From the IMG/VR virus record IMGVR_UViG_3300030106_001621, positions 1 through 35,457 of that record: a DNA stretch of 35,457 nucleotides. The stretch is one strand, 5' to 3'. The translations under genes were made by a program, and so were the position numbers. Source of the DNA: a virus. A model generated the notes under the pieces. That model saw only the letters and a list, made by a program, of their open reading frames with translations. It did no database searches and was not told the origin of the DNA. Within the stretch, counting starts at the first letter, position 1, and each line of letters begins with the position of its first letter. Shown here in pieces: positions 2,275 through 27,770 of the stretch.

Positions 2275-2275
2275 T

Positions 2276-3432: not shown

Positions 3433-3448
3433 TAGGAGCATATAGACT

Positions 3449-4360: not shown

Positions 4361-4373
4361 TAGCTAACTAATT

Positions 4374-4410: not shown

Positions 4411-4426
4411 GAATTACAGGTGAGAT

Positions 4427-4826: not shown

Positions 4827-4874
4827 TACAAAGAGCTACATTATTGGAAAAATCAAACCATCTAACAGGATCTC

Positions 4875-4903
4875 TTGCGCTCTAAACAAATTTAGCGTAT
4901 AAA
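4875..4903 (+). promoter_or_regulatory. Candidate sigma70-type promoter
   Basis: TTGCGC (4875-4880), a 17-nt spacer and TATAAA (4898-4903) lie in the 156-nt gap between 4826 and 4983, the longest gene-free stretch in the window. The -10 match is good and the -35 match is weak. It could restart transcription after the capsid terminator. The spacer holds a small inverted repeat, CTAAA-CAAA-TTTAG. Confidence 0.4.
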
Positions 4904-4982
4904 AGAATTACTAAGATATATAAATCATAAATTGGTTGTTCTTTTCTTAGTAAGGCAACTGGCGCGAGGAGGCGCTGATTAT

Positions 4983-5795: not shown

Positions 5796-5808
5796 TAATT
5801 AATTAGTG

Positions 5809-5828
5809 TGAGCTCCTTAGGGAGCTCA
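5809..5828. terminator. Hairpin between structural genes, possible weak terminator
   Basis: A perfect 8-bp stem pairs TGAGCTCC (5809-5816) with GGAGCTCA (5821-5828) across a TTAG loop. No T-run follows on the plus strand, so it may pause or process RNA rather than terminate. Confidence 0.4.
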
Positions 5829-5854
5829 TGCAATTAAAATAGGAGATAAAATAA

Positions 5855-6442: not shown

Positions 6443-6452
6443 GAGGTAACGT

Positions 6453-7208: not shown

Positions 7209-7210
7209 TT

Positions 7211-7801: not shown

Positions 7802-8520
7802 TGGCAGGAATAAGTTATTCAGGATTAGTTACACAAATTAGAAATTACACTGAAACAGACGCAAATGTTTTAACAACTGATATTTTAGAAAATATTATTT
7901 TAAATGCTCAGTCTAGAATATCTCAAGATGTTCCAATTGATGCTGATAGACATATGCAAGAAGGTAATTTAGTTACAGATAAAAATAGTATTTTTGCTCC
8001 GGCTGGAGCAATATTTACTAGAGGTATAGAAGTATTTGACTCTACTACAGCTTCAACTGGCACTTTAAGATGGCTTATTAAAAAAGATGTAACTTGGTTA
8101 GCTGAGTACATTGAAGATCTAACTGGATCAGGAGGAGCTGATGTAACCGGCATGCCTAAATATTATGCAATGTTTGGAGGAGCAACGGGAGATGGCTCAT
8201 CAAATTCAGGAGGTTATATGTTAGCACCTACTCCAGACGCAAACTATTATTTTAGAGTTCATTACGATAAAAGACCAGCAACATTAGCATCTGATAACAC
8301 GACTAATTATATTAGTATGAACTACCCTCAATTGCTTTTATATGCCTGTTTAGTTGAAACTTATGGGTTTTTAAAAGGCCCTACGGATATGTTGACATTA
8401 TACGAGCAAAAGTATAAAGATAGTATACAAACGTTTGCTTCTCAACAAATTGGAAGAAGACGTAGAGACGATTACACGGACGGCACGGTTAGAATTAAAA
8501 TTGATTCACCGAGTCCTTAA
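7801..8520 (+). CDS. Phage adaptor-like protein
   Basis: This 239-residue protein starts in a TAATG overlap with the previous gene. Residues 1-60 are helical (YSGLVTQIRNYTETDANVL, then LENIILNAQSRISQDVP), followed by strands and a region YYFRVHYDKRPATL, then helices (QLLLYACLVETYGFLKG, YEQKYKDSIQTFASQQ). This helix-strand-helix order with YEQKYK near the end is typical of the gp6/SU10-type adaptor family that forms the head-to-tail ring below the portal. Together with the gp4-like gene it suggests two stacked connector rings. The family call is from the pattern only. Confidence 0.72.
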   Translation: MAGISYSGLVTQIRNYTETDANVLTTDILENIILNAQSRISQDVPIDADRHMQEGNLVTDKNSIFAPAGAIFTRGIEVFDSTTASTGTLRWLIKKDVTWLAEYIEDLTGSGGADVTGMPKYYAMFGGATGDGSSNSGGYMLAPTPDANYYFRVHYDKRPATLASDNTTNYISMNYPQLLLYACLVETYGFLKGPTDMLTLYEQKYKDSIQTFASQQIGRRRRDDYTDGTVRIKIDSPSP

Positions 8521-8534
8521 ATTAGGAGAAAAAT

Positions 8535-8987
8535 ATGGCTATTACATCAGCAGTTTGTTCAAGTTTTAAAAGTGAACTTTTAAGTGGTAAACACGACTTT
8601 GATTCTTCAGGTGGAGATACTTTTAAAATCGCAATGTTTACAAGTTCTGCTTCTCTAGGCGCGACCACAACTGATTATAGTACATCAAACGAAATTACAA
8701 ATTCTTCTGGAACTGCTTATACAGCAGGAGGAAAAGCTCTTACAAACCAAGGCGTAACTTTAGACAGCACAACTGCTTACACTGACTTCGCTGATGTGTC
8801 TTGGACTTCAGCTTCATTTACAGCAAATGGTGCAATGATTTACAACACAACAACTGATGGCGGATCAGGTACAACAGATGCTGTTTGTGTCATAGCATTT
8901 GGTGGAGATAAAACAGTTTCTTCTGGAACTTTTACAGTTCAATTTCCAGCAGCCGCAGCAACTACAGCTATCCTAAGATTAACATAA
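8535..8987 (+). CDS. Small beta-rich virion protein
   Basis: This gene encodes 150 residues and begins 6 nt after AGGAG (8524-8528). It contains FKSELLSGKHDFDSSGGDTFK and IAMFTSSASLG near the N-terminus, an AYTAGGKALTNQGVTLD segment and a Thr/Ser-rich C-terminal beta region. I recall proteins of this size and N-terminus as widespread hypothetical structural proteins in marine phages, often next to fibre genes. It probably forms part of the tail surface or a fibre. No active-site residues are visible. Confidence 0.75.
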   Translation: MAITSAVCSSFKSELLSGKHDFDSSGGDTFKIAMFTSSASLGATTTDYSTSNEITNSSGTAYTAGGKALTNQGVTLDSTTAYTDFADVSWTSASFTANGAMIYNTTTDGGSGTTDAVCVIAFGGDKTVSSGTFTVQFPAAAATTAILRLT

Positions 8988-9001
8988 GGAGGTAAATCCT
9001 T

Positions 9002-10405
9002 ATGGCCATTACCCGAACTTTCACAGTAACGGTTGTTGGTGGTAAATACGTCATTGATGGAGTATCACAAGCCACATTAACTTTAGCAGAAGGCGCTACT
9101 TATAAATTTGATCAATCCGATAGTACAAATGGCGGTCACCCTTTAAGATTTGCCACAGCTGAAGATGCTAGTGGAGGAACTCAATATACAACAGGAGTAA
9201 CTAGTAGTGGAACTCCTGGCAACTCAGGAGCTTACACTCAAATAACTGTAGCTGCTAGTGCACCAAATCTTTATTATTATTGTACAAGTCACTCAGGAAT
9301 GGGTGGACAAGCTAACACCGTAGATGCAGACACCTGGGGTGTTTTAACATGGGGTGCTAACTCATGGGCTTCAAATACGGTAACTCCATCTATTACAGGA
9401 AATGAAATAACTTCATCACAAGGAGACGTAGATGCTTTTCCCGAACAAGGATGGGGTTCAGATACTTGGGGCACAGAAAATTGGGGAGCATCTGGATTAG
9501 CTGTTGAAGTTTCAGGAGTTTCTTTTTCTACCGCTTTAAATGCGGACGGTGTAATATCATCACCTAATACAGGATGGGGTCGAGATTTATGGGGTGAAGC
9601 ACCTTGGGGTGAAAGCAGTGACCCCGTAATACCTGTTAGTGGTTATTCAGTTTCACTTGGTTTTAATTCATCAGTTACAGTTACAACAGAAGTAAATACA
9701 GGATGGGGTTCAGATACTTGGGGATCTGAAAACTGGGGATCATCTGGAATTACTGTAGAAATTAGTGGAGTAGAATTTTCATCTGTAATTGGAGAAAATG
9801 GTTGGGGCACTATTGCTTATGGTGAAGGTGCTTGGGGTGAATGGGTATTAATTCCTGCCGATGTTGTAGGATTAACTGGAGTATCTTTTGGAAGTGCTTT
9901 AGGAACTTCAAGCGTACAGGTTGATTACACTGATGCTCCAAGTGGATATGCAGTTGCTACAGAGCAAGGAACTGGTTGGACAATTAATACCGGTGCTGAT
10001 ATACTTGTTGGATTATCAAGTCAAACAATTGGTTCAGGAGTAGGAGCAATTACACCGGCCGATGTTGTAGGAATTACAGGTGTTGAATTTGCCTCTTCGG
10101 TAGGTTCAATTACTACCGGGTCTGTAGAAATAATTAGTGTTACAGGAGTATCTTTTGCAAGTAGTGTTGGATCATTTACCATAGCCGATATGGCTGTTGG
10201 TTTAACAGGTCAATCTTTTGCAGGTTCTGTAGGAACAATTACACCAGCTGATGTAGTAGGATTGACCGGAGTTGAATTTAGTGCTAATGTAGGGGAATTA
10301 TACCCGGTATATTATAAAAACGTTGATATTGAATCTTCAGCGGGTTATGAAGATGTTGACATTGAAAGTACAACAACGTATACAGATGTAAATATAGCGG
10401 CGTAA
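9002..10405 (+). CDS. Tail-surface protein with cupredoxin-like domain and Trp-Gly repeats
   Basis: This 467-residue protein follows a very strong ribosome site, AAGGAGGT (8986-8993). Residues 1-105 look like a cupredoxin fold, with candidate type-1 copper ligands His46 (GGHPLRF), Cys94, His97 and Met100 in YYYCTSHSGMGG. Residues 112-285 carry five Trp-Gly-rich blocks beginning near W112, W151, W192, W235 and W268 (GWGSDTWG-type), alternating with strands such as VSGVSFS. From about 285 to 440 a shorter repeat, VVGLTGVEFASSVGSIT-like, recurs at least five times. The tail (NVDIES, EDVDIES, TDVNIA) is a third small repeat. A fibre or tail-tip protein is likely. Copper binding is inferred from residues only. 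Confidence 0.82.
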   Translation: MAITRTFTVTVVGGKYVIDGVSQATLTLAEGATYKFDQSDSTNGGHPLRFATAEDASGGTQYTTGVTSSGTPGNSGAYTQITVAASAPNLYYYCTSHSGMGGQANTVDADTWGVLTWGANSWASNTVTPSITGNEITSSQGDVDAFPEQGWGSDTWGTENWGASGLAVEVSGVSFSTALNADGVISSPNTGWGRDLWGEAPWGESSDPVIPVSGYSVSLGFNSSVTVTTEVNTGWGSDTWGSENWGSSGITVEISGVEFSSVIGENGWGTIAYGEGAWGEWVLIPADVVGLTGVSFGSALGTSSVQVDYTDAPSGYAVATEQGTGWTINTGADILVGLSSQTIGSGVGAITPADVVGITGVEFASSVGSITTGSVEIISVTGVSFASSVGSFTIADMAVGLTGQSFAGSVGTITPADVVGLTGVEFSANVGELYPVYYKNVDIESSAGYEDVDIESTTTYTDVNIAA

Positions 10406-10421
10406 ATTAGGAGAACAAATT

Positions 10422-11639
10422 ATGGCATCAACATATACACCACTTGGTATAGAAAAAATGGCTACTGGCGAAAATGCCGGTACATGGGGAACAAAAACTA
10501 ACACAAACTTAGATATATTTGAACAAATTGTTGGTGGATTTACTGGTCAATCGATTGCAGGCGGTGCACAAACTACAGCTTTATCTGTTTCTGATGGATC
10601 AACTGGTGCAACTTTATCTCATAGAATGATTGAATTTACAGGTTCTATTACAGGAAACCAAATCGTAACTATTCCATTAGATGTTCAAACTTTTTATTAT
10701 TTAAGAAATTCAACATCTGGAGCTTACACAGTTCAATTTAAATATACATCAGGATCTGGTGATACATTTACTTTTTCAGCAACTGACAAAGGTGATGCTG
10801 TTGTATTTGCAACTGCAAACGATGGAACTAATCCAGATATTTACACTTTACCAGCTGGTGACGTAACTACTGGTGGAACACAAACTTTAACAAACAAAAC
10901 TTTAACGTCTCCTAAAATTGGAACTTCAATTTTAGATACTAACGGAAATGAACTAGCTTTATTAACAGCAACAAGTTCAGCTGTTAACGAAATTACATTA
11001 GCAAATGCTGCGACTGGAAATGGTCCAATTATTTCTTCAACAGGTGAAACAAACGTTGATTTAAATTTAAATCCTAAAGGATCAGGAGTTCTTAAATCAG
11101 CAACTGCAGCAATTAATATTTCAGGTAAACAATCTATTTGGGTTCCAGCTACAGCAATGTACGCTGCCTCATCTAATGGATGTGCAGACATTGCTCAAAC
11201 AGAATTAACAGCTCAAAGACCTGAAGTTAAATCTTTAGATTTTGATGCTTCTTCAGATGAGTATGCACAATTTTCAATTGCATTCCCTAAAGGTTGGAAT
11301 GAAGGAACAGTAACTTTCCAAAGTTTTTGGAGTGCTGGTTCAACTAATACAGGCACAGTATGTTTTGCATTACAAGGTGTAGCAGTTAGTAGTGACGATA
11401 CATTAGATGTTGCTATGGGAACAGCTGTACCTAATACAGCATTAGCTGCTTCCGGAACAGCAAACGATCTAATGGTAAACGTAGAAAGCGGAGCAGTAAC
11501 AATAGCAGGCTCTCCAGCAGTTGGCGATGATGTCTTCTTTAACATTTTTAGAGATGTTTCAGCAGATACTTACAATGCTGATGCAAGACTCATAGGAATA
11601 AAAATATTCTATACTACTGACGCAGCTAACGACGCATAA
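10422..11639 (+). CDS. Probable tail fibre protein
   Basis: This 405-residue protein starts 8 nt after AGGAG (10409-10413). The N-terminus STYTPLGIEKMATGENAGTW, followed by GTKTNTNLDIFEQIVGG, is one I recall from many marine phage fibres, where it probably attaches to the tail. Residues 150-225 carry the fibre-like GGTQTLTNKTLTSPKIG and DLNLNPKGSGVL motifs seen in trimeric fibre shafts. The C-terminal 160 residues form a compact beta domain (SLDFDASSDEYAQFSIAFP), probably the receptor-binding or surface-exposed head. Function is inferred from these motifs and the surrounding tail genes. Confidence 0.8.
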   Translation: MASTYTPLGIEKMATGENAGTWGTKTNTNLDIFEQIVGGFTGQSIAGGAQTTALSVSDGSTGATLSHRMIEFTGSITGNQIVTIPLDVQTFYYLRNSTSGAYTVQFKYTSGSGDTFTFSATDKGDAVVFATANDGTNPDIYTLPAGDVTTGGTQTLTNKTLTSPKIGTSILDTNGNELALLTATSSAVNEITLANAATGNGPIISSTGETNVDLNLNPKGSGVLKSATAAINISGKQSIWVPATAMYAASSNGCADIAQTELTAQRPEVKSLDFDASSDEYAQFSIAFPKGWNEGTVTFQSFWSAGSTNTGTVCFALQGVAVSSDDTLDVAMGTAVPNTALAASGTANDLMVNVESGAVTIAGSPAVGDDVFFNIFRDVSADTYNADARLIGIKIFYTTDAANDA

Positions 11640-11651
11640 GGGAAATAGAGT

Positions 11652-12572
11652 ATGGCACAATTTGGATACACAATACTTGGTTTTGGATCAGGTGGAGCTC
11701 CTAAAGTTGAAATTCAATTTTTAGTAGTAGCCGGAGGCGGTTGCGGAGGTAACTCTAATTATGGATTTATCAGTGGCGGCGGCGGTGGAGCCGGTGGATA
11801 CAGAACATCTACTCAAACAGCAAACATAGGACAAACAATTACAGTAACAGTCGGCGATGGTGCTACTGCTGCTGGAGGTAGCGGTCCCGATAACGGCGGA
11901 AGTTCATCAATCTCAGGATCAGCTGCAGGACTAACAACAATAACTTCTACAGGTGGTGGCGCTGCAGGTGCTTATCACTCACCAGCTAAAGATGGTGGTT
12001 CAGGTGGTGGTACAGGAAATGGAAACCCAGCAGGTGGATTATCTGGTGGTTCAGGAAACACACCAAGCGTATCTCCAAGTCAAGGAAATCCCGGCGGAAG
12101 TGGTTCTGGTGGCGGAGGTCAACAAACCAATCCTGGAGCTGGAGCAGGTGGTGGTGGCGCTGGTGCCTCTGGAACCGATGCATCAGGAACTACTGCAGGT
12201 AATGGTGGAAATGGCACAGCAAATTCAATCACAGGTTCTTCAGTAACTTATGCTGGGGGAGCCGGAGGTGGTTCTTGGAATGGTCCAAATGGATCAGGTG
12301 GAACCGGTGGCGGCGCAGCCGGAGTAAGCGCTGCTGGTCTTAACAATGGAACTCCTGGAACTGCGAACACTGGCGGTGGCGGTGGCGGTACAGCTTGGGG
12401 AACTCATGGCGTAGGCGGTGAATCAATGGGTGGTAATGGCGGAAAAGGCGTAGTAATTTTAAGTGTGCCTACTGCTAATTATTCATCAACTACATCAGGC
12501 TCACCAACAGTTACAACATCAGGTGCAAACACAATAATTAAATTTACAGGTTCAGGGAGCTACACAACATAA
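11652..12572 (+). CDS. Glycine-rich tail fibre tip or adhesin-like protein
   Basis: This gene encodes 306 residues with only a weak ribosome site. It opens with a short hydrophobic block and the strand VEIQFLVVAGGGCGG. From about residue 40 to 265 it is dominated by Gly with Ser, Ala, Thr and Asn, in runs such as GGGGGAGGYRT and GAGAGGGGAGASG. It ends with a short beta segment (GVVILSVPTANYS). Glycine-rich domains of this type form polyglycine-II helix bundles in some T-even adhesins, such as phage S16 gp38. A receptor-binding tip is a good guess given the fibre gene before it. Another plus-strand frame is open inside it, but that is a by-product of GGT/GGA-rich codons. Confidence 0.78.
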   Translation: MAQFGYTILGFGSGGAPKVEIQFLVVAGGGCGGNSNYGFISGGGGGAGGYRTSTQTANIGQTITVTVGDGATAAGGSGPDNGGSSSISGSAAGLTTITSTGGGAAGAYHSPAKDGGSGGGTGNGNPAGGLSGGSGNTPSVSPSQGNPGGSGSGGGGQQTNPGAGAGGGGAGASGTDASGTTAGNGGNGTANSITGSSVTYAGGAGGGSWNGPNGSGGTGGGAAGVSAAGLNNGTPGTANTGGGGGGTAWGTHGVGGESMGGNGGKGVVILSVPTANYSSTTSGSPTVTTSGANTIIKFTGSGSYTT

Positions 12573-12964
12573 TGGCTAGTTTTGCAAAAATAGGAGCAGG
12601 AAATATAGTTGAAAAAGTTGTTGTTGTTAATAATGATGTAATTACTGACAATGATGGTAACGAACAAGAACAATTAGGTGTAGATTTTTTAAATAATTTA
12701 TATGGAACAACAGATGTATGGAAACAAACATCCTATAATACTCTCGCTAATGTTCATAGGTTAGGAGGAACACCTTTTAGAAAAAATTTTGCTGGAACAG
12801 GATTTATTTATGATGAAAGCAGAGATGCTTTTATACCATCAAAACCTTTTGCTTCTTGGGTATTAAACGAGGATACTTGTCAATGGGAAGCTCCAGTATC
12901 TAAACCTGTCGATAAAGCATATATGTGGGATGAAGAAAATCAAAGTTGGGATGCAATAGAATAA
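12572..12964 (+). CDS. Conserved phage protein next to fibre genes
   Basis: This 130-residue protein starts in a TAATG overlap with the glycine-rich gene. It has an N-terminal strand region (MASFAKIGAGNIVEKVVVVNN, broken by variable residues in relatives), a middle GVDFLNNLYG and WKQTSYNT, and a C-terminal part WVLNEDTCQWEAP with MWDEENQSWDA. I recall relatives in cyanophages and other marine phages encoded beside fibres and hydroxylases, without proven function. A small fibre-associated or fibre-chaperone role is possible. A strong promoter for the following gene lies directly after its stop. Confidence 0.75.
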   Translation: MASFAKIGAGNIVEKVVVVNNDVITDNDGNEQEQLGVDFLNNLYGTTDVWKQTSYNTLANVHRLGGTPFRKNFAGTGFIYDESRDAFIPSKPFASWVLNEDTCQWEAPVSKPVDKAYMWDEENQSWDAIE

Positions 12965-12967
12965 TAC

Positions 12968-12996
12968 TTGAAATATAACAATATTTAGAATATAAT
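12968..12996 (+). promoter_or_regulatory. Strong sigma70-type promoter for the oxygenase gene
   Basis: TTGAAA (12968-12973), a 17-nt spacer and a perfect TATAAT (12991-12996) precede ATG 13005. Exactly 8 nt separate the -10 box from the ATG, and there is no Shine-Dalgarno. Transcription should start within about two bases of the ATG, giving a leaderless or near-leaderless mRNA. Confidence 0.75.
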
Positions 12997-13004
12997 AATA
13001 CTTA

Positions 13005-13598
13005 ATGAAAGAAAAAATTAAATCAGCTAATTCCTCTTGGAGTTTTAAATTAGATAATGTTCATCTTTATTCTTACTGGCATGGTGCTTTTACAAAAGAA
13101 GAATGTAAAAAGATAATTCAAATTGCTAAAAAGAACGGTATGATTAAAGGAACAACAATGAATAATAACAAATTAAATGTTAGAGAAAGTAAAATATCTT
13201 GGTTATATCCTTCTGATGATATGAATTGGGTATTTCGTAGAGTAACTGACATGGTATTAGATTTAAATCAAAGATTTTTTAATTTTGATATATTTGGTTT
13301 AAGTGAAGGTTTTCAATTTACTAATTATAAGGCACCGTCTAATAAATATGGAAAACACGTTGATAGAGCATCAGATTTTATTGTTAGAAAATTATCTATA
13401 TCAATTCAATTAACTGACCCAAAAGAATATGAAGGTGGAGAACTTTATCTTTATGAAGATGATGAAGGTATACTAATGGATAAAAAACAAGGGACATTAA
13501 TTATGTTTCCATCTTATATGTTACACGAAGTTAAGCCTGTAACAAAAGGTGAAAGAAATTCATTAGTAACTTGGGTAACAGGAAATCAATTTAAATAA
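13005..13598 (+). CDS. 2-oxoglutarate/Fe(II)-dependent oxygenase (prolyl hydroxylase-like)
   Basis: This 197-residue single-domain protein carries the iron-binding triad H118-x-D120 (GKHVDRA) and H174 (YMLHEV), with Arg184 (GERNSL) placed to hold 2-oxoglutarate. Strands SISIQLTDP and GGELYLYE between them fit the double-stranded beta-helix of PKHD/P4H-type hydroxylases. Such enzymes couple 2-oxoglutarate decarboxylation to hydroxylation of a protein or small molecule; the substrate cannot be read from sequence. It lies directly downstream of fibre genes but has its own strong promoter. The first 10 residues repeat the start of the 64-residue protein at 448 (MKEKIKS), probably by chance. Confidence 0.88.
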   Translation: MKEKIKSANSSWSFKLDNVHLYSYWHGAFTKEECKKIIQIAKKNGMIKGTTMNNNKLNVRESKISWLYPSDDMNWVFRRVTDMVLDLNQRFFNFDIFGLSEGFQFTNYKAPSNKYGKHVDRASDFIVRKLSISIQLTDPKEYEGGELYLYEDDEGILMDKKQGTLIMFPSYMLHEVKPVTKGERNSLVTWVTGNQFK

Positions 13599-13858
13599 TG
13601 GCAAGGAAACTATCAATAAAAGAAACAATAGATATGTTTTCAAATGAAAATGGTTTTGCTTGGGGTATAAATACTGTTATGAAAGCATTAGTACCAAAAG
13701 CTAGTTATGATCTTACTGCTGCTAATGAAACATTTATCATAGATAGATGGGACTCAATATATCCACAACCAACATCCCAAGAAATAAAAGAGGAATACGT
13801 AAGGCAACAAACAATAGCTGAATGTATTGAATACTTTAAAAATAACAAAAAAACATAG
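13598..13858 (+). CDS. Small helical hypothetical protein
   Basis: This 86-residue protein starts in a TAATG overlap with the oxygenase, so it is likely co-expressed from the promoter at 12968. It is mostly helical (LSIKETIDMFSNENGFAWG, then EIKEEYVRQQTIAECIEYF) and has no membrane segment or enzymatic motif. I do not recognise the family. The tight coupling suggests functional linkage with the oxygenase, but this is only a positional argument. An 80-nt gap with a second promoter follows. Confidence 0.7.
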   Translation: MARKLSIKETIDMFSNENGFAWGINTVMKALVPKASYDLTAANETFIIDRWDSIYPQPTSQEIKEEYVRQQTIAECIEYFKNNKKT

Positions 13859-13902
13859 TTTTTGATTATACAAGAGAGCCCTAGTAAAGCAGCAAGATTA
13901 GA

Positions 13903-13930
13903 TTGATCTCTTTTAAAAACTATATATAAT
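13903..13930 (+). promoter_or_regulatory. Sigma70-type promoter for the large tail gene
   Basis: TTGATC (13903-13908), a 16-nt spacer and a perfect TATAAT (13925-13930) stand before ATG 13939. The 8-nt distance from -10 to ATG is the same as at 13005, again with no Shine-Dalgarno. A weak AAGAGA/TCTCTT inverted repeat (about 13871-13912) surrounds the -35 region. Confidence 0.65.
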
Positions 13931-13938
13931 GGCTGTTT

Positions 13939-16095
13939 ATGTTACAGAAACTATTTTTTCGACCTGGAATTAACAAACAAATCACCCCAACCGCAGCTGA
14001 AAGTGAATGGGTGGATGGTGATAATATTAGATTTAGATATGGTGTACCTGAAAAAATAGGGGGTTGGGATCAACTAGGTGCTGATAAACTAACAGGAGCT
14101 GTTAGAGCTATTCATCATTTCTTAGATAGTAATGGAGTTAAATATGCTGCTCTTGGATCTAACAAAATTTTATATGTGTATTCTGGTGGAACTTATTATG
14201 ACATTCATCCAATAAAAAGCACATTTACTGAAACCAGTTGTTTTACTACAAGCTCATCATCTGCCACTGTAACAATAACTTTTTCTACTGGTCATTCTAT
14301 GCAACCTGGAGACATTATTAGAACTAGTAGTGTAACAATAAGCGGATCTACATTTACAAGTTCTGATTTTGATGACCAAAAATTTGAAGTTATAACGGTT
14401 CCTACTCCTACAACGATTACTATAACAATGGCAACGACAGAACAATCTGGTCCTATAACAACTTCGGGAAGCGCTACAATTCAACTTTATGAACCAGTTG
14501 GTCCATCTCAACAAGTTAGTGGAAGAGGTTGGGGAACAGGATTATATGGTGGAACAGTTTCTGGTCCGGCGACCACGACTCTTGCTTCTGGAATCAATGC
14601 ATCTACAACCGATATTCCTTTAACAAGTTCAGCTTCTTTTCCAACTTCTGGAGAAATTAGAATTGGTTCTGAAGATATTAGTTTTACTGCTAACGACACA
14701 TCTACCAACACGTTAAGTGGTGGAGCAAGAGAAGTTAATGGTACGACAGCTGCAACTCATAGCGGAGGAGCAACAGTCACTAATATTTCTAAATTCATGG
14801 CTTGGGGTGAGGCATCAAGTGAAGACTTTATCATTGATCCTGGTTTATGGATTTTTGATAATTACGGAACAAAATTAATAGCTTTAATTTATAATGGTAA
14901 ATGTTTTGAGTGGGATGCAGATGCGGGAAATGCTACTGGAACACGAGCCACGGTTATTTCAGGAGCACCGACAGCTTCAAGACACATGATTGTATCTACA
15001 CCAGATAGACACTTAGTATTCTTTGGAACAGAAACAACGATTGGAGATACATCTACACAAGATGATATGTTTATTAGGTTCTCGGACCAAGAAGACCTCA
15101 ACACGTACGCACCTAAAGCAACCAATACTGCTGGTACACAGAGACTGACTGGCGGATCACGGATCATGGGAGCAAGGCGTGGTAGAGATGCACTTTATAT
15201 TTGGACAGACACTGCTTTATTTTTAATGAGATTTGTAGGTCAACCTTTTACTTTTACTTTCTCACAGGTAGGAACTAACTGTGGTTTAATTGGTAAAAAC
15301 GCAAATACCGAAGTAGATGGAAATGCTTATTGGATGTCAGAAAATGGTTTCTTTAGATATACTGGTAAACTTGAATCACTATTATGTTTAGTAGAAGACC
15401 ATGTTTATGAAGATGTAAACACCAACGCTAGAGATTTAATTAATGCTGGTCTTAATAACTTGTTTGGAGAAGTATCTTGGTTTTATGGCACAAGTTCTTC
15501 TGACTCCATTAATAGAGTTGTAACAATTAATTATTTAGAATCTTCTGCACAACGTCCTGTGTGGACTATTGGTACTTTAGCAAGAACTGCTTGGGCTGAT
15601 TCAGCTGTATTTGATAAGCCACATGCTTGTTATTATGGGTCTTCTGATAACGCCTCTTTTGATGTACAAGGTAATACTAGTGGAAGCACAATTTATTATG
15701 AACACGAAACAGGTACCGATCAAGTTGTGTCTGGAGGCACAGTGACTGCTATCTTGGCCAACATTCAATCTGGAGACTATGATATTACACAAGATGCTAG
15801 AGAAGGAATTACATTTAGAGGTGATGGAGAATATCTAATGAAGATAAGAAGATTTATTCCTGATTTTGTTTCTCAAACAGGAAATACTCAAGTAACGTTA
15901 AATTTAAAAGATTACTCTAATAGTACTCAAGCAAGTTCTCCTTTAGGACCTTTTACAGTATCAAGTTCTACAACTAAAGTAGACACTAGAGCAAGAGCTA
16001 GAGCAGTGTCCTTAAAAATAGAAAATACAGGATCCTCACAAAATTGGAAACTAGGAACATTTAGATTAGATGTTCAAGCAGATGGAAGAAGATAA
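13939..16095 (+). CDS. Large tail protein, P22 gp10/nozzle-like
   Basis: This gene encodes 718 residues. The N-terminus (LQKLFFRPGINKQITPTAA, then NIRFRYGVPEKIGGWDQL) matches the pattern of packaged-DNA-stabilisation or tail nozzle proteins (P22 gp10 and T7 gp12-like groups), which plug the tail channel. Residues about 212-284 look like an inserted Ser/Thr-rich module (TTDIPLTSS, GEIRIGSEDISFTAND, ATHSGGATVTN). After it the core resumes with a propeller-like alternation of strands (HLVFFGTETTIGD, DALYIWTDTALFLMRF, AYWMSENGFFRYTG). Its N-terminal start is set by the promoter distance. An ATG at 13929 in another frame is open for only 14 codons. The family call is from pattern only. Confidence 0.75.
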   Translation: MLQKLFFRPGINKQITPTAAESEWVDGDNIRFRYGVPEKIGGWDQLGADKLTGAVRAIHHFLDSNGVKYAALGSNKILYVYSGGTYYDIHPIKSTFTETSCFTTSSSSATVTITFSTGHSMQPGDIIRTSSVTISGSTFTSSDFDDQKFEVITVPTPTTITITMATTEQSGPITTSGSATIQLYEPVGPSQQVSGRGWGTGLYGGTVSGPATTTLASGINASTTDIPLTSSASFPTSGEIRIGSEDISFTANDTSTNTLSGGAREVNGTTAATHSGGATVTNISKFMAWGEASSEDFIIDPGLWIFDNYGTKLIALIYNGKCFEWDADAGNATGTRATVISGAPTASRHMIVSTPDRHLVFFGTETTIGDTSTQDDMFIRFSDQEDLNTYAPKATNTAGTQRLTGGSRIMGARRGRDALYIWTDTALFLMRFVGQPFTFTFSQVGTNCGLIGKNANTEVDGNAYWMSENGFFRYTGKLESLLCLVEDHVYEDVNTNARDLINAGLNNLFGEVSWFYGTSSSDSINRVVTINYLESSAQRPVWTIGTLARTAWADSAVFDKPHACYYGSSDNASFDVQGNTSGSTIYYEHETGTDQVVSGGTVTAILANIQSGDYDITQDAREGITFRGDGEYLMKIRRFIPDFVSQTGNTQVTLNLKDYSNSTQASSPLGPFTVSSSTTKVDTRARARAVSLKIENTGSSQNWKLGTFRLDVQADGRR

Positions 16096-16259
16096 TGGCA
16101 AAAATAGTACAAGCACTTACCCGAGCTAGTAAAGAATATGACGAAGTTGTATTTCAATCTTTAATAAGAGATTTAGATGCTGTAATTGAAAAACTTAATT
16201 CTACATATCAAGCAGATGTTAAAGATGAAGTAAATGCGGAGGCATATTTTTTAAACTAA
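16095..16259 (+). CDS. Small helical protein of the tail module
   Basis: This gene encodes 54 residues, starting in TAATG with the large tail gene and ending in TAATG with the next. The protein is one long amphipathic helix region (KEYDEVVFQSLIRDLDAVIE) with a short tail ending in EAYFLN. I recall similarly small helical proteins after gp10-like genes in marine phages. Both junctions and the coding-like codon use support a real gene despite its length. Its function is unknown; a minor tail or assembly factor is possible. Confidence 0.75.
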   Translation: MAKIVQALTRASKEYDEVVFQSLIRDLDAVIEKLNSTYQADVKDEVNAEAYFLN

Positions 16260-16606
16260 TGGCTGTACAAGGTAATACATTTATAAACGCAAAAAAAGAT
16301 CTTACAGATACAAGTAATACTACTTTATATACTTGTCCCTCTGCTACAACAGCTGTTCTAAAATCTATTCTAGTCAATGATGACTCAGGATCAGGTGACA
16401 CTATTACAGTAACTTTAACTGCTGGATCTGATGTATTCAGTTTATTTAAAGTAAAAGCTGTTAGTGCCAATACTACAGTTGAATTACTTACAGCACCTTT
16501 GGTAGTTCAAGAAGATGAGATATTAAAGGTTCAAGCTGCTACAGGGGATAGGCTCCATGTTGTAGCTTCAATACTAGAAATTAAGCCTAGACAGGTAGTA
16601 ACATAA
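16259..16606 (+). CDS. Beta-rich small virion protein
   Basis: This 115-residue protein is linked by TAATG overlaps on both sides. It alternates strand-like segments (NTTLYTCPSATTAVLKSIL, DTITVTLTAGSDVFSLF, DRLHVVASILEI) and has one Cys. The pattern of short strands separated by Gly/Asp/Asn turns suggests a single beta-sandwich, as in phage decoration or fibre-joint proteins. I do not recognise a named family. Its place in the tail operon supports a structural role. Confidence 0.72.
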   Translation: MAVQGNTFINAKKDLTDTSNTTLYTCPSATTAVLKSILVNDDSGSGDTITVTLTAGSDVFSLFKVKAVSANTTVELLTAPLVVQEDEILKVQAATGDRLHVVASILEIKPRQVVT

Positions 16607-16806
16607 TGAAAACCATTAATATAAACGGGAAAGAAGTTCCTGTAATTGAGTCTACTAAAGTAGTAGAAACGTTTAAAAATAAGAAAACAGGGGAGATTTA
16701 TAAAAACAAAGAAGACTGGGTGTCCAAAAACATCCCTGCAAATGACATACGAAAAGATGTTATAGTGCACGCTCCAGGACTTGATTTGTTTCCAAAAACA
16801 AAGTAA
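16606..16806 (+). CDS. Small hypothetical protein of the tail operon
   Basis: This 66-residue protein starts in a TAATG overlap. It contains a beta-turn start (KTININGKEVPVIESTKVVE), a Lys-rich FKNKKTGEIYKNKEDW and an ending APGLDLFPKTK. The KTGEIYKNKEDW part looks like a small strand-turn-helix unit. No catalytic motif is visible and I do not recognise the family. It is the last gene of this coupled set; a 54-nt gap with a weak hairpin follows. Confidence 0.68.
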   Translation: MKTININGKEVPVIESTKVVETFKNKKTGEIYKNKEDWVSKNIPANDIRKDVIVHAPGLDLFPKTK

Positions 16807-16816
16807 TGTAAAAATT

Positions 16817-16838
16817 CAGGTGAAATCCCTGCCTTTTT
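16817..16838 (+). terminator. Weak hairpin with T-run, possible terminator
   Basis: CAGG (16817-16820) can pair with CCTG (16828-16831), followed by CC and TTTTT. The 4-bp stem is weak, so termination would be partial at best. It sits between the small tail genes and the ejection-protein genes. Confidence 0.3.
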
Positions 16839-16860
16839 AAAATTTAACTAATACAACTAT

Positions 16861-18924
16861 ATGGCTATAACAAGATTACAATTACCCCGAGAAATGTACG
16901 CTACTGGAGATATGGTAGAAATGACTGAAAGTTTAGAAGCTGGAGCACCCTCTATAAAATATGAAGGTGATAAAAGACCACAAACGCAAATGGAAGGAAT
17001 TGAAGGACAAATGGCTGGCCCCACTTGGTTTTTTAACAGAGTAGAAAATTTAGAATATTTAGGTTACTCTCCAGAAGAAGCAGCTGCCATAGCTTCGAAT
17101 GATGAAGCATATTTTGAAATTGTTGGTGATCCATTAGCTGATGGTGGTCAAGTAAGACAAAAATATGGTCTTGGAAGTTTCGTTAAAAAAATTGGAAGAG
17201 GTATTAAAAAAGTTGTAGACAACCCTATTGTTCAAACAGCTTTAATGATGAACCCTACTACAGCACCATACGCAGCTGCTTATTCAGGACTTAGAAGTCG
17301 TAATCCGGTTGCAGCACTGATGGCTGTGCAAGGAATGGGAAATCCTTATGTTGTTGGAGGTGGTATTGGTAATATGAATACTAATAATATGATTCTTCGA
17401 TCTGTACAAAATATGGGTAATATTAGAGGTGGTGGTGGATCAGGTGATGGATCAGGTGGAAGTTCTAATATTGATCAATATGATGATAATAGAGGATTTC
17501 TTCCACAAGATGGTGGTTCAGGTGGTGATAGTTTATTTGGAAAGGTAAGAGATGCTTTGTTTTATAAAAAAGGCACTCAAGAACTAGATCCCTTAAAACT
17601 AGCTTTAGGAGCCGGAGCAAGTTTATTAGGTATAAGTGCATTACAAAAAAGAGCCAATGAAAAACAACCTAAACTTGAAGACATGATTGGAGATAGAGGA
17701 AGTAAAATTGGTCTAGACGATATTCAAATGAAAGTTCAAGCTGCTATTGATAGTGGTGATAAAGCAACTTATGAAAATTTAAAAGTTACAGAGAACTTAG
17801 CATTCTTACCACCATGGGAATCTATTCAAAAAGCTGAAGGCGGAAGAATTGGTTATGCTTCTGGAGGAAAACCAAGCACTTCTATAATAGAAATCATGAG
17901 TGTAATTGAAACATTACCTTTTGACCAAAAACTACGGGCTTTGGAAATGTTACCGCCATCAGTAAGAGCAGAAGTAGAAGAAAGACTTGGAATGGCTGAA
18001 GGTGGTAGAATAGGTTATTCTTCTGGAGGAAAATCCTCTGCTGAGATGTTAGAAATTATTCAAAGGTTAAGAGCCGAAGGTAAAACTGAATTAGAAATTC
18101 AACAAATTTTACAACAAATGTTTTCAGTTTCAAGTTCAGGATCTTCAGGAATTATGAATGTTCCACAAAGACAAAGTATGTTAAATGAAATTATAAGACC
18201 AATTACTGAACAAACTTATATGCAATCAAAACCAGACGACTTACGTGCACGTATATCCCCAATAAGTTCAGAAACGTTAGATACTTCAGTTACAATGTTG
18301 CCTACAAAAGGCAGAATGCAAAGAAGTGACATGAGTGCTTTCTTTAAGGAACCAGTTGTGGCTCCTGAAATATTAAAAAGAATGCAAAGAAGTGACATGA
18401 GTAATTTCTTTAAGGAACCAGTTGTGGCTCCTGAAATATTAAAAAGAATGGAAAATATGCAGTTTCCTACTAGAACAATGGAAACTAATATGCCTCAAAT
18501 TGATGCTACAGGAGCAGCTCAAGGTGGAAGAATAAATAAGGCTAATGGTGGACTTACTACATATGAAATATCCAGCTTAAAAGGATTAGGTTACGACACT
18601 AAAGGGGGCACAGTTCTTAAACCTTTTGGTGGCCTCAAAGTATTAAGAGATATTTTAAAAGTAAATAACATGGCTCAAGGTGGAATAGCAACCATGGGTA
18701 ATGGTAGAATGATGAACATGGGTGGAATGGAAATGGATTTAAGAGGCGGTGGTTTTGTGCCAATCGGTAGAGCAGAAAAAGCTGATGATGTGCCAGCAAG
18801 ATTATCTAGAAATGAATTTGTAATGACAGCAGATGCTGTTAAAGCTGCAGGTGATGGAGACGTTGACCGAGGCGCAGATAAAATGTATGCAACAATGAAA
18901 CAATTAGAGGATAGAGTAGCATAA
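16861..18924 (+). CDS. Probable ejection/internal virion protein with GGRIGY repeats
   Basis: This 687-residue protein has no ribosome site before its ATG. The N-terminal 100 residues are charged, then residues 100-170 contain basic and hydrophobic helices (GSFVKKIGRGIKKVVDNP). A Gly/Ser linker spans about 190-220. Motif AEGGRIGY-SGGK occurs at residues 325 and 379, and a related AQGGRINKANGG at 553. Residues 485-506 are duplicated at 507-528 (RMQRSDMS, then FFKEPVVAPEILK). The C-terminus (DDVPARLSRNEFVMTADAVKAAG) is one I recall from internal virion proteins of marine phages. It starts a run of three large genes before the lysis pair, the usual place of ejection proteins in short-tailed phages. 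No lytic domain is visible. Confidence 0.75.
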   Translation: MAITRLQLPREMYATGDMVEMTESLEAGAPSIKYEGDKRPQTQMEGIEGQMAGPTWFFNRVENLEYLGYSPEEAAAIASNDEAYFEIVGDPLADGGQVRQKYGLGSFVKKIGRGIKKVVDNPIVQTALMMNPTTAPYAAAYSGLRSRNPVAALMAVQGMGNPYVVGGGIGNMNTNNMILRSVQNMGNIRGGGGSGDGSGGSSNIDQYDDNRGFLPQDGGSGGDSLFGKVRDALFYKKGTQELDPLKLALGAGASLLGISALQKRANEKQPKLEDMIGDRGSKIGLDDIQMKVQAAIDSGDKATYENLKVTENLAFLPPWESIQKAEGGRIGYASGGKPSTSIIEIMSVIETLPFDQKLRALEMLPPSVRAEVEERLGMAEGGRIGYSSGGKSSAEMLEIIQRLRAEGKTELEIQQILQQMFSVSSSGSSGIMNVPQRQSMLNEIIRPITEQTYMQSKPDDLRARISPISSETLDTSVTMLPTKGRMQRSDMSAFFKEPVVAPEILKRMQRSDMSNFFKEPVVAPEILKRMENMQFPTRTMETNMPQIDATGAAQGGRINKANGGLTTYEISSLKGLGYDTKGGTVLKPFGGLKVLRDILKVNNMAQGGIATMGNGRMMNMGGMEMDLRGGGFVPIGRAEKADDVPARLSRNEFVMTADAVKAAGDGDVDRGADKMYATMKQLEDRVA
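18313..18444 (+). repeat. 66-bp in-frame tandem duplication
   Basis: Units 18313-18378 and 18379-18444 are identical except for two adjacent bases (GCT versus AAT, Ala to Asn). Each encodes 22 residues beginning RMQRSDMS. A third partial start (RMENMQFP) follows. Confidence 0.95.
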
Positions 18925-19736
18925 TGGCAATACAACAACAGCAAACATTACCGGCACCTTTTATAGAAGAAGCAGGAAAAGATTATTTAGGTCAATTAAA
19001 AGGTTTAACATCAGTAGCTTTAGATACATCTAAATTTGCACCTACAGTTGCGGGTCAAGACGTATTACAAACTCAAGCTGCGACTTTAGCTGGAGATACT
19101 GGTGCAACAGGATTAGGTGGTTATCAACAATATTTAACAGCAGCACAAGGTTTAACAGGACCACAAGCTTACAAACCTTATATGACACCGTATCAAACAG
19201 ATGTTATTGATGCGACTCTTACTGAGTACGATAAGCAAACACAACTTCAAGAACAAGGTTTAAGAGATCAACAAGCTAAACTTGGAGTGCTAGGAGCAGG
19301 TAGAGCAGGAATACAGTTAGGAGAGTATGGTTCTCAAAGAGGATTAGATAGAGCTGCGCTGCAAGCAAGAATGTTACAAGATGCTTTTAGTCAAGCTCAA
19401 GGATTAGCACAAACAGATTTTAATCAACAAATGAATTTAGCACAGTTACAACCATCATTAGCAGCTGGAAGAATTGGTACTTTGGGTCAAGTGGGCGCAA
19501 GACAACAGGCTCAAGCACAAGCTCTATTAGATGCTACGAGAGAACAAAACAGAATGGCTGCTATGGAACCTTATGAAAGAATAGGAACTTATGGATCAGG
19601 AGTAGGTTCTATGATTTCAGGATATCCAGGAAGAAGTCAGTTTACTGCAACACCTAATCCAACTCCTTTACAAACGGCTCTTGGAATTGGATCATTCCTT
19701 GGTGGTGCATTTTTAGGGAGACCCCAAAGAGGATGA
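18924..19736 (+). CDS. Gln/Ala-rich probable ejection protein
   Basis: This 270-residue protein starts in TAATG with the preceding gene. It is very rich in Gln, Ala, Leu and Gly and largely helical (EYDKQTQLQEQGLRDQQAK, RMLQDAFSQAQGLAQ). The C-terminus has GLGxFxG-like small-residue stretches (GIGSFLGGAFLG) that could insert in a membrane. Helical, Gln/Ala-rich proteins of this kind in the order before a very large protein resemble the ejection sets of P22 (gp7/gp20/gp16) and T7 (gp14-gp16). Assignment is by composition and position. Confidence 0.7.
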   Translation: MAIQQQQTLPAPFIEEAGKDYLGQLKGLTSVALDTSKFAPTVAGQDVLQTQAATLAGDTGATGLGGYQQYLTAAQGLTGPQAYKPYMTPYQTDVIDATLTEYDKQTQLQEQGLRDQQAKLGVLGAGRAGIQLGEYGSQRGLDRAALQARMLQDAFSQAQGLAQTDFNQQMNLAQLQPSLAAGRIGTLGQVGARQQAQAQALLDATREQNRMAAMEPYERIGTYGSGVGSMISGYPGRSQFTATPNPTPLQTALGIGSFLGGAFLGRPQRG

Positions 19737-20791
19737 GTAGAGTATTAAACAGACCTTTATTTCGTAGAGGAGGATCTACAAGTGGAATTACTTCTGGATT
19801 AGACAAACCAAGACAAAATTATAAAATAGGTCGTAGAGTTGATTATCCAGCTATGTATGAACAAGCAGAAGAAATTACAGAAAAATTTTATCCTGAAAGA
19901 GATTCTAAAAGAGATTTTGGCAGGTACTTAATGGATTTTGGTATAGAATTAGCTAATACTGAACCACAAGGAAGTATTTTTGGAACAGCTTCTAGAGCTT
20001 TAAGAGGACCTACTCAAAGATTTTTAGCAAGAGGTGATGTTCAAGATAAAACTAGAACTGAAGCTAAGTCTGATATTTTTAAATCTTTAATAGAATCGGA
20101 AGCAGATATTTTAAGTGGTGAATCAAGTGGTAAACTTTACAAAGATCAAGTAATGTTGGGTCAATTATTAGATGCTACTGAAAAAAAACTTAAACTAACA
20201 AAAAAACAAAAAGAAGAAGGGTTAAGTCAACAAGAAGAAACAGAATTATTGTTGGCAAATACAACCATTAATCAATTGAGAAAAAGAGATCCATTAGTAG
20301 AACAATTCTTAGGATCTAAAGATGTTATTGGGTCATTAGTTAATAGTATTTTACCAAGTAAGAAAAGAGAAATGGTTACAAATGAAGCTGGTGAAAGAGT
20401 TTTAAAATATCCTAGTACTCCAGAAGGACAACAACAAATGATTCAAGATGCTATTATAGAGATTAGAGAAATTATTGTAAAAGGTGGAGAAACATCTTTA
20501 GCTAAAGGTGGTAGAGTTGGTTATCAACAAGGTTCATTAGTCGAAGATGTAAGTATGGAAGAAGAAACTATTGAAGAACCTATGGCAGAAATGCCTGAAG
20601 CTGACGCCATGGATATATCTTATGATGAATTAAGACAAAGATTACCTGAATCAATAAGTGATGATATTGTAACACTTCTTTCTCAAAGTGCAGAAGCTTT
20701 AGAAGATTTTGCAATGATACAAACTCAACAAGACGTAGACATATTTAATTCTAAATACAACGTAAACCTAGTCCTACCACAGGAGGTTTAA
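19733..20791 (+). CDS. Probable internal virion/ejection protein
   Basis: This 352-residue protein starts in a 4-nt ATGA overlap, with AAAGAGG just before it. The N-terminus is basic (MSRVLNRPLFRRGGS). Residues 45-210 are helical and charged. The motif LAKGGRVGYQQGS near residue 257 matches the GGRIGY motif of the 687-residue protein. The last 80 residues are acidic (SMEEETIEEPMAEMPEAD) and end in a helix. The shared motif and gene order suggest both proteins belong to the same virion assembly. No enzyme motif is visible. Confidence 0.7.
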   Translation: MSRVLNRPLFRRGGSTSGITSGLDKPRQNYKIGRRVDYPAMYEQAEEITEKFYPERDSKRDFGRYLMDFGIELANTEPQGSIFGTASRALRGPTQRFLARGDVQDKTRTEAKSDIFKSLIESEADILSGESSGKLYKDQVMLGQLLDATEKKLKLTKKQKEEGLSQQEETELLLANTTINQLRKRDPLVEQFLGSKDVIGSLVNSILPSKKREMVTNEAGERVLKYPSTPEGQQQMIQDAIIEIREIIVKGGETSLAKGGRVGYQQGSLVEDVSMEEETIEEPMAEMPEADAMDISYDELRQRLPESISDDIVTLLSQSAEALEDFAMIQTQQDVDIFNSKYNVNLVLPQEV

Positions 20792-25861: not shown

Positions 25862-25867
25862 AAATTC

Positions 25868-25884: not shown

Positions 25885-25891
25885 TATCCTA

Positions 25892-27322
25892 TTATATCCA
25901 GGATTTAAGTTCTTCTCCCATTACTTCAGATGCAATATTAATTTTTTTACGTAAAGATTTTACAATTTTATTATCTACTGTATCGTTTGCTATAATATCT
26001 ATGTAGGTTACTTTTCCTTTTTGTCCTATTCTATGTGCTCTATCTTCAGATTGCATTCTTTTCTCTAAATCATATCCGTTAGAATAATAAATAACCGTAT
26101 TAGCTGTGACTAAAGTTAATCCATAACCACCTGTCTGTGGTGTTCCTACAAAAAACCTACATTCTTCTTTTTCTTTAAAATTTTTAATAGCTTTGGTTCG
26201 TTGATCGGGTAGCGTTTTGCCATAATAATGAACCACGGACCCCGGACCATATTTTTTCTCTATTGCTTTTACTATAGTTTGTATGTCATGTTGATAATGA
26301 GCCCATATAATGGCTTTACCTTCTACTTCTTCTGTAATTTCTAATAGTTCTGATAACCTGTTGTTTTTAATATTTTGAATAGTTCCATCATCAGCAGAAA
26401 AATGTCCACATGTTATTTGATGTAGTCTCATTAGTTGTGTTAGGGCTGTCATAGTTGTAACAGTTTTACCATTTAAAGTTGCGAGTGCTTCTTGTTTCAT
26501 TTGTTTGTATAGTTTTTGTTGCTGTGGAGTTAGTTCTATTTCTCTTTTCATGTATATTTTATCCGGTAAATCTAAACAATCTTCTTTTAATACTCTATAT
26601 GAGAATGTTTGTAGTTGATCAGACAACTCACCTAAATTTTTAAAATGACTTACAACTTGTATGGATCTACCAGAAATATGTAATGTTTTCATTTCTGCAT
26701 ATCTATTTCTAAAAGAATAATAAGAAACACAATCTAAATGACTAGGATCTAAAAACTCGCATTGGCTATATAAATCTAACGGATTTTTAGTTACAGGAGA
26801 ACCTGTCATTATTCTTCTATACTTAGCAATATGTGAAAGACCTAAAATATTTTTTGTTCTTTTTGCTTTAGGGTTTTTAATAGTTGTGCTTTCATCAATG
26901 GCTACAAGAGCATTGTGTGCAATTAAAAAATCCATAGCAAAATTTTTACCTTTGTCTGTACTAAAAGCTTCTACATTCATGACTAATATTTGGAGTTCAT
27001 GACCTGGAGCCATGACACTTTTTAATTTTTCGAATTGTTTATTGTTTATGTTTGCTTGCCACATTACTGCCACTTTGTCTATGTGTTTTGGTAAATGTGT
27101 GGGTAGTTCTTGATTATACCACGTACCCATAACACCTTTAGGTGCAATAATAAGAGCGCCATCAATTTTACCTCTATCATATAGCATAGCCATATTATCA
27201 ATAAGAACTTTTGTTTTACCTGTACCCATCTCCATAAAATAGGCAAAAGTTTCTTTGTTCCATGACTTTTCTAAAGCAGTAAGCTGATGTTTATACGGCT
27301 TTGTCTTAAATTTATAATTCAT
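25892..27322 (-). CDS. SNF2-type superfamily 2 DNA helicase/ATPase
   Basis: This 476-residue protein is the only minus-strand gene found. Motif I is MGTGKT (residues 32-37), motif Ia LIIAPKGVMGTW, motif II DEST (143-146) with TIKNPKAKR as in SNF2 proteins, motif III MTGSPVTKN, motif V GYGLTLVTANTVI and motif VI RAHRIGQ (428-434). The short length lacks accessory domains. Phage relatives are usually called DNA helicases and may help replication, recombination or chromatin-like remodelling of phage DNA. Its ATG at 27322 has a weak GAAAG before it. A near-consensus promoter lies at 27342-27369 on this strand. Confidence 0.9.
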   Translation of the reverse strand: MNYKFKTKPYKHQLTALEKSWNKETFAYFMEMGTGKTKVLIDNMAMLYDRGKIDGALIIAPKGVMGTWYNQELPTHLPKHIDKVAVMWQANINNKQFEKLKSVMAPGHELQILVMNVEAFSTDKGKNFAMDFLIAHNALVAIDESTTIKNPKAKRTKNILGLSHIAKYRRIMTGSPVTKNPLDLYSQCEFLDPSHLDCVSYYSFRNRYAEMKTLHISGRSIQVVSHFKNLGELSDQLQTFSYRVLKEDCLDLPDKIYMKREIELTPQQQKLYKQMKQEALATLNGKTVTTMTALTQLMRLHQITCGHFSADDGTIQNIKNNRLSELLEITEEVEGKAIIWAHYQHDIQTIVKAIEKKYGPGSVVHYYGKTLPDQRTKAIKNFKEKEECRFFVGTPQTGGYGLTLVTANTVIYYSNGYDLEKRMQSEDRAHRIGQKGKVTYIDIIANDTVDNKIVKSLRKKINIASEVMGEELKSWI

Positions 27323-27334: not shown

Positions 27335-27363
27335 TTGACTTTTTATAACACATCCACTATATA
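27335..27363 (+). promoter_or_regulatory. Plus-strand sigma70-type promoter of the replication module
   Basis: TTGACT (27335-27340), a 17-nt spacer and TATATA (27358-27363) lie exactly 8 nt before ATG 27372. The distance equals that of the promoters before 13005 and 13939. No Shine-Dalgarno is present. It overlaps the opposing promoter of the SNF2 gene. Confidence 0.6.
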
Positions 27364-27369
27364 TGTCAA
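27342..27369 (-). promoter_or_regulatory. Minus-strand sigma70-type promoter of the SNF2 gene
   Basis: Read on the minus strand, a perfect TTGACA (27369-27364), a 16-nt spacer and TATAAA (27347-27342) point toward ATG 27322. The predicted leader is about 12 nt. The two opposing promoters occupy the same 35 bp, so polymerase can probably use only one at a time. Confidence 0.68.
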
Positions 27370-27371: not shown

Positions 27372-27770
27372 ATGAAAGCTCGGAAGAATGATTTACCATT
27401 TGAGGCTTGGAAATTACGCACACCAACAGTGTATGTGATTCAAGAAATCGCGGGAACTAGAGAGGGCAAACCTAAAATTAATATTATGGGTGCTGCCAAC
27501 TATGGCGATTTTAAATTTTTACTTCCCGAACTTTCTCAAATCATATTTTCTCCTGGCCCGTTAATATATAAATTGAGACAAGGATTGAAAGATTATTCTT
27601 CTCAAGATTATTTATTGTTAACGGGCGACCCAGCAATAATAGGTGTTGCTTGTTCTATCGTTTCTGATATTACAAATGGAAAATACAAATTATTAAAATG
27701 GGACAAACAAGAAAGAAAATATTATCCAATAGAAATAAATTTATTCGAGAAAGGAAAATTAGATGAATAG
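27372..27770 (+). CDS. Conserved hypothetical protein opening the replication module
   Basis: This gene encodes 132 residues from ATG 27372. An in-frame ATG at 27363 would add three residues but lies inside the -10 box. The protein contains TVYVIQEIAGTREGKPKIN, LPELSQIIFSPGPLIYKLR, DYLLLTGDPAIIGVACSI and KYKLLKWDKQERKYYPIEI. I recall this pattern from marine phage genomes beside replication genes, with no function assigned. The repeated hydrophobic strands and GDPAIIG turn suggest a compact alpha/beta fold. It ends 8 nt inside the next gene. Confidence 0.8.
   Translation: MKARKNDLPFEAWKLRTPTVYVIQEIAGTREGKPKINIMGAANYGDFKFLLPELSQIIFSPGPLIYKLRQGLKDYSSQDYLLLTGDPAIIGVACSIVSDITNGKYKLLKWDKQERKYYPIEINLFEKGKLDE

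Follow-up and report, generated by a model that had tools for sequence, protein, structure and literature searches.

Relatives of pelagiphages appear to start some genes without a leader, in places from candidate opposed promoters packed into about 36 bp

Leaderless phage mRNAs, divergent leaderless gene pairs and overlapping divergent promoters are each already known separately. The bidirectional promoters of Escherichia coli and Salmonella are described as pseudo-symmetric DNA that RNA polymerase binds either way, giving divergent transcription, with a symmetric -10 element and start points usually 18 bp apart, within a defined range of 7-25 bp (PMC12825309, PMC10268837). In the telomere phage PY54, the divergent cI/cro pair gives two mRNAs that both begin at the AUG, as mapped by rapid amplification of cDNA ends (RACE), from a region with several promoters and a separate Cro operator, and the available sections describe no superposed pair (PMC4488713). 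The EcoRV and CfrBI restriction-modification systems have overlapping divergent core promoters that the polymerase cannot use simultaneously (PMC5333194), and the bacterial TA-led genes carry a -10-like box just before the start codon and are leaderless (PMC3160421, PMC4117421, PMC12340547). Here we examine an element of about 35 bp, at positions 27335-27369 of an AT-rich virus record of 35,457 bases (IMG/VR record IMGVR_UViG_3300030106_001621, encoding head, structural and replication genes; this whole stretch is referred to as the window), which would serve two promoters of the host RNA polymerase (sigma70-type) in opposite directions.

This element differs from each of the described systems. 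Unlike the E. coli and Salmonella promoters, it has separate -10 boxes, each abutting the -35 box of the other promoter, instead of one symmetric -10 element, and its start points, themselves predicted, would lie ~35-37 bp apart. In EcoRV the overlap is partial, the C transcript is not leaderless and regulation is by the C protein (PMC5333194), and the TA-led genes are described in cellular genomes (PMC3160421, PMC4117421, PMC12340547). We found no description of the combination in this geometry in the open-licence literature searched, and the words promoter, intergenic, palindrom- and leaderless are absent from the main text of a paper on HTVC023P-type genomes (PMC9599517).

By protein, the nearest named relatives of the window include the pelagiphages HTVC027P and HTVC023P, together with the genome 023Pt_psg01, so SAR11 is the likely host of its phage. 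SAR11, the type of host that pelagiphages infect, comprises the ocean's most abundant bacteria, and relatives of such ocean viruses appear, judging from sequence, to start some genes leaderless, in places from opposed promoters in ~36 bp. If true, divergent genes in a group of ocean phages would start from nearly the least DNA into which two full promoters fit, the two genes being tied by polymerase exclusion and committed to leaderless translation in streamlined-genome hosts. A cultured SAR11 strain serves as host for HTVC027P, whose infection has been studied by RNA-seq in published work; the phage is reported to lack an RNA polymerase of its own and to depend on that of its host (PMC12753301), which we count in favor of host-type promoters. 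The median intergenic length of 'Cand. P. ubique' is 3 nt (PMC2704228), leaderless genes were scored in 2 of 117 alpha-proteobacterial genomes (PMC3160421), and 375 leaderless mRNAs are given for Caulobacter (PMC3160421, PMC4117421).

A sequence-only reading of the window had pointed to three promoter-like arrangements, each ending 8 nt before an ATG that lacks a Shine-Dalgarno motif, and had taken the fixed distance as the mark of a shared leaderless mode of expression, perhaps one for early or persistent genes. Read directly from the letters, all three are present (Table 1), and a scan of the 17 nt ahead of ATGs 13005, 13939 and 27372 showed no AGGA, GGAG or GAGG. Hexamer spacings of 17, 16 and 17 nt, and of 16 nt leftward at site 3, fall within the 16-18 nt of sigma70-type promoters, and the short -10-to-ATG distance without a Shine-Dalgarno motif is among the marks of TA-led genes. 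The supposed contrast with other genes of the window proved weaker than claimed, as uncoupled starts without such a motif occur elsewhere (e.g., 16861 and 30697) and are not rare in this genome. When 41 starts in the window were scanned at gaps of 3-12 nt, exactly three promoter sites were found, each of them at gap 8. Among 2000 shuffles that approximately preserved dinucleotides, gaps 5-9 held 0.22 sites on average, with three or more in 4 shuffles and three at one gap in 1. A shared gap of 8 by chance is thus unlikely, bearing in mind that the box criteria were chosen post hoc, after the three sites were known. The three sites are, at the same time, not one phenomenon, site 3 being the strongest.

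Table 1. Candidate promoters and adjoining genes in the window
Feature	Positions	Strand	Details
Site 1, promoter-like TTGAAA-17-TATAAT	12968..12996	+	-35 at 12968-12973, -10 at 12991-12996; 8 nt before ATG 13005
2OG-Fe(II) (2-oxoglutarate and iron) oxygenase gene	13005..13598	+	Pfam PF13640
Site 2, candidate promoter TTGATC-16-TATAAT	13903..13930	+	-35 at 13903-13908, -10 at 13925-13930; 8 nt before ATG 13939, a gap shared by the window, L004, L005 and L009
Virion structural protein gene (phrog_3287)	13939..16095	+	Predicted near-leaderless here and in close relatives
Site 3, candidate superposed divergent promoter	27335..27369		Arms TTGAC...GTCAA enclosing both -10 boxes; inner length 25
Site 3, rightward -35 box TTGACT	27335..27340	+	
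Site 3, rightward -10 box TATATA	27358..27363	+	17-nt spacer; 8 nt before ATG 27372
Site 3, leftward -35 box TTGACA (TGTCAA on +)	27364..27369	-	Abuts rightward -10
Site 3, leftward -10 box TATAAA	27342..27347	-	16-nt spacer; 19 nt before helicase ATG
Pam3_gp32-like gene	27372..27770	+	Pfam PF23992; start predicted leaderless or near-leaderless; ATGAAAG start in many homologues
SNF2-type helicase gene, divergent partner	25892..27322	-	Pfam PF00176/PF00271; short leader predicted

At site 3, between the helicase and the Pam3_gp32-like gene, TTGAC and GTCAA arms were found in 72 of 76 usable records including the window, making up 65 distinct cores with inner lengths of 23, 24, 25, 27 or 28 (L228, L231, L232, L238 and L242, with too little upstream sequence, were excluded); they are also seen at the helicase locus of 023Pt_psg01. 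When the best of spacers 15-19 was taken, a -10 box preceded the next ATG by 5-10 nt in 63 of the 65 cores, with a mode of 7. Compared with shuffled interiors, the -10 boxes matched better whichever way the element was read (4.65 vs 3.82 and 4.40 vs 3.79, of 6, with 0 of 500 shuffles reaching either value), although the control was a plain shuffle with one end padded. The most persuasive test of promoter function at this locus is spacing compensation: box-to-ATG distance fell with inner length (r = -0.81), whereas the -10-to-ATG distance gave r = 0.16, with standard deviations of 1.47 and 0.92, respectively, in 61 of the 66 cores with an ATG open reading frame (ORF), five with the ATG 22-28 nt away being excluded. 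As the arms widen, the ATG shifts inward; typically it lies 2 nt beyond the arm at first and then comes to overlap the arm, while the -10 box stays ~7 nt from the ATG. Taken mechanically, the longest ORF would begin farther upstream, at the in-frame ATG 27363 within the -10 box; since GTCAA-(1-3 nt)-ATGAAAG marks this junction in many homologues, in a comparison that covered 54 of the 80 loci, 27372 is likely the true start, as the sequence-only reading had chosen.

These observations suggest that two divergent promoters share this DNA, with the arms acting as their -35 boxes. As each -35 box would closely follow the -10 box of the opposite promoter, the polymerase would fit in one orientation at a time. 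Rightward transcription would begin at ATG 27372 or within ~2 nt of it, giving a leaderless or near-leaderless mRNA, and leftward transcription would begin ~13 nt before the helicase ATG, leaving a short leader. Sites 1 and 2 would be one-way promoters close to their ATGs, near-leaderless in the window's clade at site 2 and possibly inactive at site 1. We put the probability of this joint reading, with two opposed superposed promoters at site 3 that are leaderless rightward, at about 0.7.

A 34-bp version of the element spans the gap between the gene for the terminase small subunit (TerS) and a divergent gene in related phages. In the viral_contigs collection, CATN-TTGAC-N24-GTCAA-NATG matched at least 120 stretches, compared with 9 for the same pattern at N19, 5 at N29 and 4 with other arms at N24; the arms and the one-nucleotide flanks are imposed by the search pattern, and the preference for spacing 24 is not. 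Among these matches as listed, 35 distinct elements are flanked on one side by a TerS-type start, TerS being assigned by homology to the annotated TerS of HTVC027P, with Pfam Terminase_2 below its cut-off. An uncontrolled count in genome_contigs (84,980 species) gave 67 matching stretches, none titled Pelagibacter or SAR11. Among 20 arm sites in 20 records, 15 have an ATG-ORF starting near one or both ends, and several fill the whole gap between divergent ORFs. Among starts with a qualifying promoter, all 30 of the TerS type and 59 of the 60 in the partner family have a gap of 6 nt, the remaining one being at 8; with transcription predicted to begin at the usual distance from the -10 box, a gap of 6 nt would put the start point on the A of the ATG. 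With 34 bp plus one nucleotide on each side, both divergent transcripts of the terminase element would be leaderless. It is an even question, in our judgment, whether a distinct class of regulatory element occurs in pelagiphages of the HTVC023P type and in their relatives, namely a near-minimal divergent gene start whose whole gap of ~36 bp is taken up by two superposed host-type promoters, with both transcripts starting on their start codons. In that case the binding of polymerase for one gene would exclude the other, and each gene would rely on leaderless translation, possibly in a favored ATGAAAG context.

Neither the window nor G001 yielded a TerS homologue. Three elements with TTGAC and GTCAA arms occur in G006. 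In HTVC027P, gp30 and gp31 are separated by a TTGAT...ATCAA version. The adjacent gp30 (15768-15944, L284) overlaps TerS; it is reported as the ribosome-rescue factor ArfA, with an expression cluster of its own that is high at 3 h and 12-15 h (PMC12753301), and its ArfA Pfam match is below the curated cut-off. Such a cluster fits an independent promoter and is not proof of one. In G007, the rightward neighbour of a terminase-type palindrome (3555-3588) has a more distant AAGGAG ribosome site, as if one leaderless start had been lost.

At site 2 we scored 50 distinct upstream regions, of which 6 are those of the window and relatives at 92% identity or more and 44 are farther ones (L012, L013 and L070, whose match does not begin at residue 1, and L049 and L067, with short upstream sequence, were dropped). 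The promoter and its 8-nt gap are kept in four of the six close regions (window, L004, L005 and L009) despite divergent sequence farther upstream; the other two, L006 and L008, have no qualifying promoter and are nearly identical to each other over the last 40 nt. Among the 44 farther regions, 12 have a TTG promoter whose distance to the ATG is 20-24 nt, weak promoters stand at 31 nt in 9 and at 5 nt in one (L062), 10 have promoters at other distances and 12 have none, a full promoter with an 8-nt gap being found in none of the 44; by this scoring, the TTGAT-type promoter recurs outside the close clade and the full promoter with the 8-nt gap does not. In another group (e.g., L025 and L034), TATAAT stands 8 nt before the ATG with GGAG or GAGG between them and no qualifying -35 box, an arrangement that can be read either way and was counted neither for nor against. 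Near-leaderless expression in the window's clade thus has moderate support from the upstream comparison. In L021-L023, L056, L058 and L059, GACCC...GGGTC or a near match, ~37 nt in all, lies between the promoter and the homologue of the 13939 gene; an attenuator hairpin there was considered for L022 and rejected, its fold being no better than that of shuffles (z 0.14).

The promoter of site 1 is retained in the 99%-identical record L083. In the nearest divergent relatives (L084-L086, 87-89% protein identity), TTGGAA and TAAATT replace TTGAAA and TATAAT and the start is retained, and many of the more distant homologues have AAGGA-type ribosome sites; the comparison covered 48 of the 80 loci. 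Site 1 may be a young or inactive promoter. Conservation in related phages, which the sequence-only reading had named as a check, was observed at site 3, in part at site 2 and, beyond the 99%-identical record, not at site 1. For leaderless expression, comparison gives good support at 27372, moderate support at 13939 and none at 13005. The fixed 8 nt did not survive as a rule, given the range and mode at the site 3 locus, the 6 nt of the terminase element and the promoters 20-24 nt from the ATG at the 13939 locus.

How general this mode of expression is was addressed in 21 genomes or large genome parts not selected by promoter (767 unique starts). There, 18 of the 40 strong promoters within 45 nt of a start sit at gaps 5-9, with 17 among 391 starts without a Shine-Dalgarno-like motif and 1 among 376 with one (Fisher p 1.3e-4), many of these being homologous palindromic sites. 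Once the sites were collapsed to families and the palindromes removed, 12 families fell in the 5 positions of gaps 5-9 and 83 in the 36 positions of gaps 10-45, so that the short gaps were no denser, which speaks against a general mode; among these families, motif-less starts had 10 at gaps 5-9 vs 38 farther away, and starts with a motif 2 vs 49 (Fisher p 0.013). The proposed shared mode thus comes down mostly to palindromic elements and has little support outside them. A larger set gave 168 promoters at gaps 5-9 over 3101 starts vs 9 over 12278 internal ATGs, and was set aside because it included loci retrieved by the element's own pattern. ATGAAAG was found at 41 of 58 leaderless-type hits, a figure inflated by homologous sites, and at 6 of 14 family representatives, vs 72 of 2052 starts overall.

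Several further observations weigh against superposed promoters. At the helicase locus, the arms are missing in 4 of the 76 records (L199 and L210-L212), five cores have their first ATG-ORF 22-28 nt from the -10 box, L182 has arms without a nearby ATG-ORF, and the window's own core is palindromic at just 7 of 17 positions; the cores are also related by descent, so that the counts overstate their independence. Neither HTVC023P nor HTVC027P has the element at this locus. In the latter, 20 nt separate TATAAT from the annotated ATG of gp01, a distance that presumes its two record ends to be contiguous, and gp01 is predicted to be leadered. Elsewhere, the bare arm pattern is just ~2x commoner than its reversed control (20 forward matches vs 11 in the 20 records), 9 of 46 printed pattern matches have an ORF of <40 aa on one side, some plainly by chance, and the conserved middle of the terminase element, GTTACC, exceeds what two promoters need.

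That conserved middle, the inverted arms and the presence of several elements in one genome, as in a regulon (three in G006), would suit an operator for a dimeric phage regulator, in which case the -35 likeness would be secondary and the -10 boxes and short gap incidental. Although compatible with promoters on the same DNA, an operator is an improbable account of the element, as the -10-like hexamers found at promoter spacing are better than shuffles give, rightward and leftward alike, and the -10-to-ATG distance is held while the arm spacing varies, with inner lengths from 23 to 28 at the helicase locus. The loxP layout of site-specific recombination comprises 34 bp, arms and an asymmetric middle, with the arm spacing fixed. 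The terminase element shares the length and a conserved asymmetric middle, yet a recombination site is very hard to credit: arm spacing is not fixed (23, 24, 25, 27, 28), the middle varies at the helicase locus, and a tyrosine recombinase (PF00589) was matched in none of the 19 records examined, of which many are fragments, compared with all 14 control genomes. A packaging (pac/cos) site beside TerS is, if anything, more far-fetched still; the commonest class of element does adjoin TerS, but elements of this kind also lie at the helicase locus and at other places within one genome.

It is also conceivable, though we doubt it about as much as an operator, that expression is ordinary and leadered, with promoters farther upstream, AU-rich starts without a motif, and near-ATG promoters arising by chance in AT-rich DNA. 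Promoter-like sites are indeed not in excess in the window (56 vs 61.6 expected in 1-20000 and 49 vs 68.2 in 20001-35457, in a scan whose threshold site 3 fails), motif-less starts are common, the boxes of site 1 are not conserved, and gaps 5-9 show no overall excess outside palindromes. Chance would leave unexplained, however, the conservation and spacing compensation at site 3, the four upstream regions that keep 8 nt at site 2, and the leaning of motif-less starts, more than of starts with a motif, toward gaps 5-9.

Two sequence motifs near these starts were also noted. The ATCCTATA motif, present in several leaderless-type promoters, was rejected as a candidate, being unenriched in the 21 genomes (39 vs a mean of 49.5 for words of the same composition, 117 of 199 control words reaching its count). 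Finally, a 23-bp exact repeat at 447-469 and 13004-13026 of the window spans the start ATGAAAGAAAAAATTAAATCAG of two different genes, and its shorter string ATGAAAGAAAAAATTAAAT is found in G001, G003 and G004 too.

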